A DNA stretch of 64,000 nt from Cytophagales bacterium (lineage in GTDB: Bacteria; Bacteroidota; Bacteroidia; Cytophagales; Cyclobacteriaceae), in the NCBI GenBank assembly GCA_020402945.1, contig JADBYQ010000029.1, positions 26,011-90,010 of the forward strand. Direction: 5' to 3'. Under the pieces are notes generated by a model that ran no database searches, was not told the DNA's origin, and was given only the letters and a program-made list of their open reading frames with translations. This document shows, piece after piece, positions 21,950 through 22,345 of the stretch; the stretch's first letter is position 1, and the number at the start of each line of letters is the position of its first letter. The position numbers were made by a program, and so were the translations under genes.

Positions 21950-21980
21950 TGTCATCATAATCGGTGAAGCCAAAAGCCAA

Positions 21981-22088
21981 CCGATTTATATAGAAGCGTG
22001 GAGAGAACAGGCTCTTTGAAACGCTAGCAACCCCGAAAAAGGTGCTAATTCCTGCCTCAAAGAAGGTCTTTGAGGAAATATAAACCGG
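21981..22088 (+). promoter_or_regulatory. SAM-I (S-box) riboswitch
   Basis: The S-box elements are present in order. P1 is CCGATTTATAT (21981-21991) with ATATAAACCGG (22078-22088). P2 is AGCGT...ACGCT (21995-22025), enclosing GGAGAGAACAGGCTCTTTGA and followed by AGCAACCCC. The core is GGTGCTAATTCCTGCC. P4 is CTCAAAGA/TCTTTGAG. An upstream ATCGGT (21960-21965) can pair with ACCGAT at the start of P1 and so compete with it. P1 ends 1 base before the ATG of a leader peptide rather than before a terminator. The structure should report S-adenosylmethionine to the metY-metX-hom operon. Confidence 0.92.
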
Positions 22089-22089
22089 T

Positions 22090-22212
22090 ATGAAAATGAA
22101 AAGATTTATCATTCAGTCAATCACCCAAGGGAAACACCTCCTCCTAAATTTCTTTTATTCCATTCAATATCAACAGTGCAGCATGTGTTGTTGCTCTGTA
22201 CGTTGTTGGTAA
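22090..22212 (+). CDS. Cys-rich leader peptide of the met operon (40 aa)
   Basis: An ATG directly after riboswitch P1 opens a 40-codon frame ending at TAA 22210-22212. The peptide starts MKMKRFIIQSITQGKHLLLN and ends QQCSMCCCSVRCW, with five Cys codons among the last eleven, then Trp and stop. A hairpin follows (22202-22235), and its downstream arm can also pair with the Cys codons themselves. This is the classic layout of translation-coupled attenuation, here sensing charged tRNA-Cys and so sulfur supply. No homologue function is known to me. Composition and position, not homology, support it being translated. Confidence 0.65.
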   Translation: MKMKRFIIQSITQGKHLLLNFFYSIQYQQCSMCCCSVRCW

Positions 22213-22238
22213 TGATCGGTTGATCGTCCAACAACACA
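22184..22238 (+). promoter_or_regulatory. Candidate attenuator with mutually exclusive RNA hairpins
   Basis: Structure A: GTTGTTGG (22202-22209) with CCAACAAC (22228-22235), extended by an inner ATGATC/GATCGT stem of six pairs. Structure B: TGTGTTGTTG (22184-22193, the Cys codons) with CAACAACACA (22229-22238), ten pairs. The two cannot coexist. A ribosome stalled in the Cys run would mask the 5' arm of B. No T-run follows A, so control would have to act by Rho, by another downstream structure, or on translation. Confidence 0.55.
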
Positions 22239-22345
22239 CTAGCGCACGGCCTACCGAGTGACGGGTATGGTTATGGCTAAGTTTTCTTCTACGTTAATTC
22301 TTCTTTGAACTAAATCTAAATTCAATAATCTTAAATCTTAAAAGT

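Follow-up and report, generated by a model that had tools for sequence, protein, structure and literature searches.

A cysteine-codon leader frame behind a SAM-I riboswitch upstream of metY in Cytophagales, and a proposed two-step relay

We describe here the 5' leader of the metY, metX and hom genes of a Cytophagales bacterium, contained in a 64,000-nucleotide stretch of genomic DNA (the window), in which a SAM-I riboswitch is followed by a short reading frame with cysteine codons clustered at its end. The arrangement is real and far from chance. We propose from comparison of sequences, with a probability of roughly 0.6, that the two elements form a two-step relay, in which SAM would block translation of the leader frame and metY-metX-hom would be expressed when SAM is low and ribosomes stall on the Cys codons; the bacteria would then probably weigh both SAM and cysteine supply before making MetY. 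The features of the locus are as follows.

21918..21949, plus strand: likely promoter, consisting of TTTG (21918-21921), a 20-nt spacer and TACGTTTG (21942-21949), with the TAnnTTTG match at 21942
21959..21986, plus strand: P0, a 5' hairpin seen in folds, AATCGGT (21959-21965) with ACCGATT (21980-21986)
21983-22086, plus strand: SAM-I (S-box) riboswitch aptamer, RF00162 (76 bits, E 4.6e-16, gathering score 44.4)
22090..22212, plus strand: leader reading frame of 40 codons, MKMKRFIIQSITQGKHLLLNFFYSIQYQQCSMCCCSVRCW, an open reading frame conserved in kind among relatives
22177..22206, plus strand: Cys-codon cluster read from the sequence (TGC 22177, TGT 22186, TGT 22189, TGC 22192, TGT 22204)
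22202..22235, plus strand: 14-bp hairpin from the last codons to CCAACAAC, a fold alternative to pairing of 22184-22193 with 22229-22238
22240..22279, plus strand: downstream hairpin with the 8-nt apical loop GAGTGACG (22256-22263), supported by covariation and clade-specific
22346..23668, plus strand: metY, O-acetylhomoserine aminocarboxypropyltransferase (homocysteine synthase; TIGR01326, 673.5 bits, cut-off 495.1)
23743..24837, plus strand: metX, homoserine O-acetyltransferase (NF001209, 332.9 bits, cut-off 331)
24841..26067, plus strand: hom, homoserine dehydrogenase (NF004976, 335.9 bits, cut-off 205)

NCBIfam and Pfam agree with the first-pass annotation on the identities of the three genes. 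The RF00162 element is a SAM-I riboswitch, since its covariance-model score is above the curated threshold, and both SAM binding and an effect on expression are predicted; with a lax threshold, the other Rfam matches in the leader are at chance level only. The claim that the P1 helix ends one base before the ATG of the frame holds when P1 is extended to 22089 by three further contiguous pairs, which are possible, but not by the Rfam boundary, which lies 3 nt before the ATG. The 40-codon frame itself, ending QQCSMCCCSVRCW behind the S-box, is as described earlier, with a TGG codon and then the stop directly after the Cys cluster. Four leader peptides were compared with NCBIfam, and no model matched.

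The frame is not peculiar to this locus. We took the best 80 of 585 metY loci from a species-level genome collection, a choice that biases the sample to close relatives, and with the window added scanned these 81 loci with Rfam. A SAM riboswitch lies 5' of metY in 74 of them, and in 52 of these 74 SAM-bearing leaders the first ATG after the riboswitch opens a frame with at least three Cys among its last 12 codons, compared to 0.38% of dinucleotide shuffles. In 50 of the 52, this ATG follows the riboswitch by 1–12 nt. Cys accounts for 46% of the 12 terminal codons and for 2.6% of those earlier in the frame, and the final residue is Cys in 42. The set rises to 53 metY leaders once one locus (L017) is counted with its second ATG. 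A cluster of control codons near the stop of a short frame, a trait of leader-peptide attenuators, is thus present in 52 of the 74 leaders and in the window, and what is kept behind the S-box is the Cys codons rather than the sequence. We also note five stand-alone Cys-tailed frames (L029, L040, L054, L058, and L082) situated about 90–110 nt before metY with no adjacent SAM riboswitch, two among the seven loci without a riboswitch match and three where the riboswitch is distant or differently placed; four of these frames terminate in CMP. In some loci another gene intervenes between the Cys leader and metY, an OsmC-like gene in L007, with the same kind read in L010, L020, and L043, and an AhpC/TSA-family gene in L080.

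To these 53 metY leaders were added 44 from phylum and order surveys, giving a set of 97; L123, which starts with GTG upstream of a TonB gene and has a questionable Cys tail, was left out of this set and kept in the pooled site count. The N-terminal parts of the leaders are dissimilar between families. TGYTGY runs are in frame with the ATG in 333 of 342 instances across the 97 leaders, and the Cys codons are a mixture of 373 TGT and 200 TGC, which together show that codons are kept and not a DNA repeat. Substitutions in the last 15 codons of 14 close pairs number 64, 68, and 62 at codon positions one, two, and three, a test that indels make uninformative, and the coding case therefore rests on the frame and codon-mix evidence. 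Methionine accompanies cysteine in these tails. In the 53 leaders it accounts for 76 of the 485 non-Cys tail residues and for 20 of 1342 residues elsewhere in the frame; for the remaining 44 leaders the figures are 42 of 428 and 4 of 974. Met codons are thus enriched about tenfold or more among the non-Cys residues of the Cys-rich tails, possibly reflecting methionine sensing or internal starts, and several leaders have at least three Met codons in the tail, more than internal starts would need.

The Cys codons could in principle be kept as one arm of an RNA pairing, with the frame incidental. The ten-base pairing described in the first-pass annotation is present in the letters of the window, with 22184-22193 (TGTGTTGTTG) complementary to 22229-22238 (CAACAACACA) at 10 of 10 positions, as is the 14-bp hairpin, in which 22202-22217 pairs with 22222-22235 as 8 and 6 bp with a 2-nt bulge; moreover, a CAAC after the stop, complementary to the Cys codons, is invariant in 18 aligned close relatives. 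We nonetheless regard a TGY repeat retained to pair with GCAACA after the stop as highly improbable, both because the repeats are in frame and, where they are broken by other codons, the frame is still kept, and because most other families have no GCAACA-type arm. Mutually exclusive hairpins, another trait of attenuators, are present in the window, but the proposal that stalling chooses between the two Cys-arm hairpins would apply at best to its clade. Complementarity between the Cys segment and the post-stop sequence has a mean z of -1.27 in the 18 leaders of the window's clade, and of -0.49 in 75 leaders outside it, hardly above shuffles and compared to -0.30 for a frame-body control; we accordingly reject a general Cys-arm switch.

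A further point against such a choice is that, in folds of the window, the downstream hairpin at 22240-22279 forms no matter which stretch of the frame a ribosome covers. A first automatic fold of the clade gave only nine pairs as a result of misalignment. On a trimmed alignment (A2) of 16 sequences, from which a near-copy of the window (L005), two diverged leaders (L014 and L016), and two without GTGAC (L020 and L028) were left out, 93.8% of cells are paired and 19 are changed on both sides; none of 500 shuffles reach this covariation, and slid structures have at most 45.6% of cells paired. A model of the hairpin (R1) finds matches in four of 60 genomes of the family, and a SAM core and a Cys frame precede every one of them; the GTGACRG motif occurs in 19 of the 53 leaders. 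The check proposed earlier on related leaders thus finds the frame kept although the DNA is not, and downstream hairpins that covary within the clade; beyond it, neither the CAAC arm nor the GUGAC hairpin is general. The GUGAC of the apical loop is nearly invariant in the post-stop hairpins of the window and its relatives, and is possibly a binding site.

The region 5' of the aptamer offers a plausible means for SAM to control the leader frame. The TAnnTTTG motif matches the sigma-A consensus as given in a report on a flavobacterium (PMC9723704). It is found 15–75 nt 5' of the riboswitch in 46 of the 53 Cys-leader metY loci, and transcription of the window's leader likely starts near 21954, about 136 nt before the frame. 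Between the putative start and the aptamer, the 3' arm of P0 (ACCGATT) is also the 5' strand of P1, such that the two helices are mutually exclusive. P0 is stronger than in shuffles both in the 53 Cys leaders (mean z -1.55, p 1e-14) and in 45 further ones (-1.15, p 2e-5), compared to mean values of -0.12 at 76 metY sites without a Cys frame and -0.24 at 82 metH and metX sites. Its pair types co-vary across families, and a formal count over 30 aligned sequences gives 12 double-change cells, which none of 500 shuffles reach, although these include only a single pair changed on both sides, which 468 of 500 shuffles match. P0 is not exclusive to Cys leaders, as minimum-energy folds show it at 12 of 17 metX sites and attain three of its five bases at 35 of the 76 metY sites without a Cys frame. 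In the ensemble fold of the window, openness around the ATG is hardly different with P1 forced (0.23) than when free (0.28). We infer that P0 and P1 constitute a switch by which the leader frame has its start exposed or shut, and the earlier suggestion that SAM gates this start gains comparative support from the adjacency of the ATG to P1 and the competition between P0 and P1.

The relay that we favor would proceed in four steps. First, in a transcript beginning near 21954, P0 would hold the 5' strand of P1, leaving the P1 3' strand beside the ATG open; complementarity and enrichment are observed, and the switch is what they suggest. Second, SAM would stabilize P1, melt P0, and set a helix against the ATG, and the leader frame would not be initiated. 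Third, when the leader is translated, the speed of the ribosome over the terminal Cys codons, and the Met codons among them, would report the charging of Cys-tRNA, making the leader a putative sensor of tRNA-Cys. Fourth, where that ribosome stands, some 130 nt 5' of metY, would determine if RNA polymerase, or the transcript, goes on productively.

The distribution of the arrangement among genes bears on this relay. We ran the SAM model over 148 phylum genomes (127 with a match) and 108 order genomes (81 with a match), and analysed 130 and 106 sites, respectively, among the matches listed. In the order sample, again among the matches listed, Cys frames accompany 25 of 36 metY sites (11 are without), none of 30 metH, 11 metX, or 3 hom sites, one of four CGL-like sites, and 12 of 22 others, including none of three metK sites. 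The corresponding numbers for the phylum sample, similarly limited to the matches listed, are 5 of 70 metY sites including the window (4 of 69 beyond it), none of 27 metH, and none of 16 CGL-like sites. A pooled, non-redundant set retains 299 of 313 sites, with L002, which is the window, left out of the pooled counts and L236, L242, and L243 left out as repeats. Among the pooled sites listed, 78 of 168 metY sites have a Cys frame and none of 86 metH, metX, MetX-like, hom, and metK sites together, a difference with a Fisher p of 2.8e-18 among the matches listed when kinship is ignored. Other downstream genes, assigned by Pfam or by reading, include the PAPS reductase gene cysH, for which two of four sites carry the module strictly (L303 and L283), while of the others one (L284) has its Cys cluster within a GTG frame and at a greater distance from the frame end, and one (L313) has a weak cluster. 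One nitrite/sulfite reductase gene (L291), four of four amino-acid permease genes (L286, L288, L305, and L318), and three of three ATP-grasp genes (L170, L290, and L306) are likewise preceded by it, as are an HPP gene (L271), a Na+/H+ antiporter-like gene (L255), and a TonB-type gene (L302). Cultured organisms that carry the module include Chryseolinea serpens (L018) and Mucilaginibacter.

It is possible, although unlikely, that the frame acts by translation alone, gated by SAM and serving transcript protection or coupling, with the Cys tail providing slow codons or binding metals or thiols rather than sensing tRNA-Cys. Consistent with this, 13 of the 74 metY loci, mostly of Algoriphagus, have an ATG at +1 to +12 and a frame with no Cys cluster, and P0 is still present in these on average (mean z -1.06, p 0.014). 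However, the Cys codons are the sole conserved thing in the 97 leaders and track sulfur-entry genes rather than metH and metX, and the five stand-alone Cys leaders precede metY with no SAM riboswitch beside them.

We consider the chances evenly balanced that there is a more general, portable module in Cytophagales and their relatives, in which a SAM-I riboswitch would act on the start of a leader rich in Cys and Met codons, not on a gene or a terminator, and so would gate a readout of Cys-tRNA, and perhaps Met-tRNA; it would serve a sulfur-entry regulon of metY, cysH, sulfite reductase, permeases, and YceI, and would be absent before genes of remethylation, of homoserine acetylation, and of SAM synthesis.

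The sign of the second input also needs to be considered. The net rule that we favor would be expression under a joint shortage of SAM and Cys, because cysH and sulfite reductase have the module too, and because the MetY family is named for the synthesis of both homocysteine and cysteine. Low SAM together with low Cys is not obviously optimal for expression of metY, and the sign could therefore differ; it is not readable from sequence. MetY competes for sulfide, and stalling on the Cys codons could lower its expression and spare scarce sulfide for cysteine synthesis, such that shortages of SAM and of Cys would oppose each other; a ribosome stalled there would, in the clade of the window, release the CAACAAC arm. 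We think this quite unlikely, as shutting off in Cys shortage would make little sense for the sulfide-making cysH and sulfite reductase behind the same leader, and the name of TIGR01326, to which MetY belongs, includes cysteine synthase.

The output is the step at which the relay, as we favor it, is weakest. A consensus scan of 21830-22400 identifies no terminator, and the window does not have the intrinsic terminator with a U-tract that is a further trait of attenuators; a looser scan scores the downstream hairpin at -14.3 kcal/mol with the weak tail AGTTTTCT, in keeping with the observation in the first-pass annotation that the leader has no strong T-run. Terminator-like hairpins follow the stop in 18 of the 97 Cys leaders, including the weak-tailed one of the window, versus 5% of shuffles, and canonical terminators are found at 40 of 65 metY sites without a Cys frame in the phylum sample and at 14 of 19 CGL-like sites. 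Because SAM leaders with terminators mostly have no Cys frame and those with a frame mostly have no terminator, we suggest that in the latter SAM acts on the leader frame in place of a terminator. Either a Rho-type or a translational output would need no intrinsic terminator. Rho is encoded in the window's genome, and the C/G ratio of the frame bodies is 1.74, weak evidence for Rho loading given that metY starts are similar (1.48). Termination at the weak-U hairpin or by Rho is probably the likeliest output, and translational effects are possible.

Each part of this arrangement has known counterparts, as both Cys leaders and mRNAs that combine a riboswitch with a leader peptide are already known separately. 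The actinobacterial leaders of the Mycobacterium cys operon and Bifidobacterium cbs are described, in the account drawn on here, as having a short frame, a Cys run near the stop, and no obvious terminator (PMC1262725). Like these, the metY leader places Cys codons close to the end of a short frame upstream of sulfur genes. No riboswitch figures in that account, whereas here the frame and a SAM-I riboswitch are fused, and about 130 nt separate the frame end from metY. Mycobacterial polycysteine short ORFs have been shown to be attenuators that respond to cysteine (Canestrari et al. 2020, as recounted in PMC9031893); their translation begins leaderless at the very 5' end of the mRNA, unlike that of the metY frame, which sits behind an aptamer. 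Tandem Cys codons are shared by uORFC-8-2, which precedes cysS in Rhodobacterales and is proposed to be a ribosome-mediated attenuator (PMC8632094). It differs from the metY leader in having an intrinsic terminator with a terminal U-run, in controlling cysteinyl-tRNA synthetase, and in having no SAM aptamer. In the enterobacterial mgtA/mgtL and corA/corL leaders, ion-dependent RNA folding is combined with a leader peptide containing critical codons, and a Rho-dependent output is reported (PMC11552253). An RNA ligand sensor and a leader-peptide sensor both have counterparts in the metY leader, where sensing is predicted and the likeness is one of analogy; mgtA/mgtL differs in its Mg2+ ligand, in its Pro and acidic codons, in a uORF that no SAM aptamer helix gates, and in having no tie to a sulfur regulon. 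SAM-I riboswitches with a ribosome-binding site in P1 gate an enzyme gene, whereas the frame that would be gated here is a Cys-codon leader. Searches of an open-licence library, from which subscription papers are mostly absent, revealed no Cys leader behind a SAM riboswitch. If the relay operates as proposed, it would be a natural two-input gate in which a small-molecule aptamer and a ribosome sensor act in series within one 5' leader, and would explain how a phylum with partly terminator-less SAM riboswitches ties sulfur entry to both SAM and cysteine. It would also give a defined output to riboswitches that precede short frames rather than genes, and hundreds of unannotated Cys-tailed leader peptides would be expected.

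Of the four S-boxes in the genome containing the window, two are followed by Cys frames, and the others precede a CGL/CGS-like gene and metH, respectively. The second SAM and Cys-codon leader (L004; contig C45, minus strand, 51612-51725, MNMKKRNTSLFILILNRNFSLAQTLVCEATSAKQKCCCC) has a frame ending in KCCCC, and the gene downstream belongs to the YceI family. The S-box before the CGL/CGS-like gene (L001; contig C45, 56543-56651) is followed by a canonical terminator (AAAGCTCTTC..GAAGAGCTTTTT), in contrast to the metY leader of the same genome. Elsewhere in the window, we note a cobalamin riboswitch at 4296-4496 on the minus strand (101.4 bits) and a 5S rRNA at 63904-64000, also on the minus strand, which runs off the end of the window.
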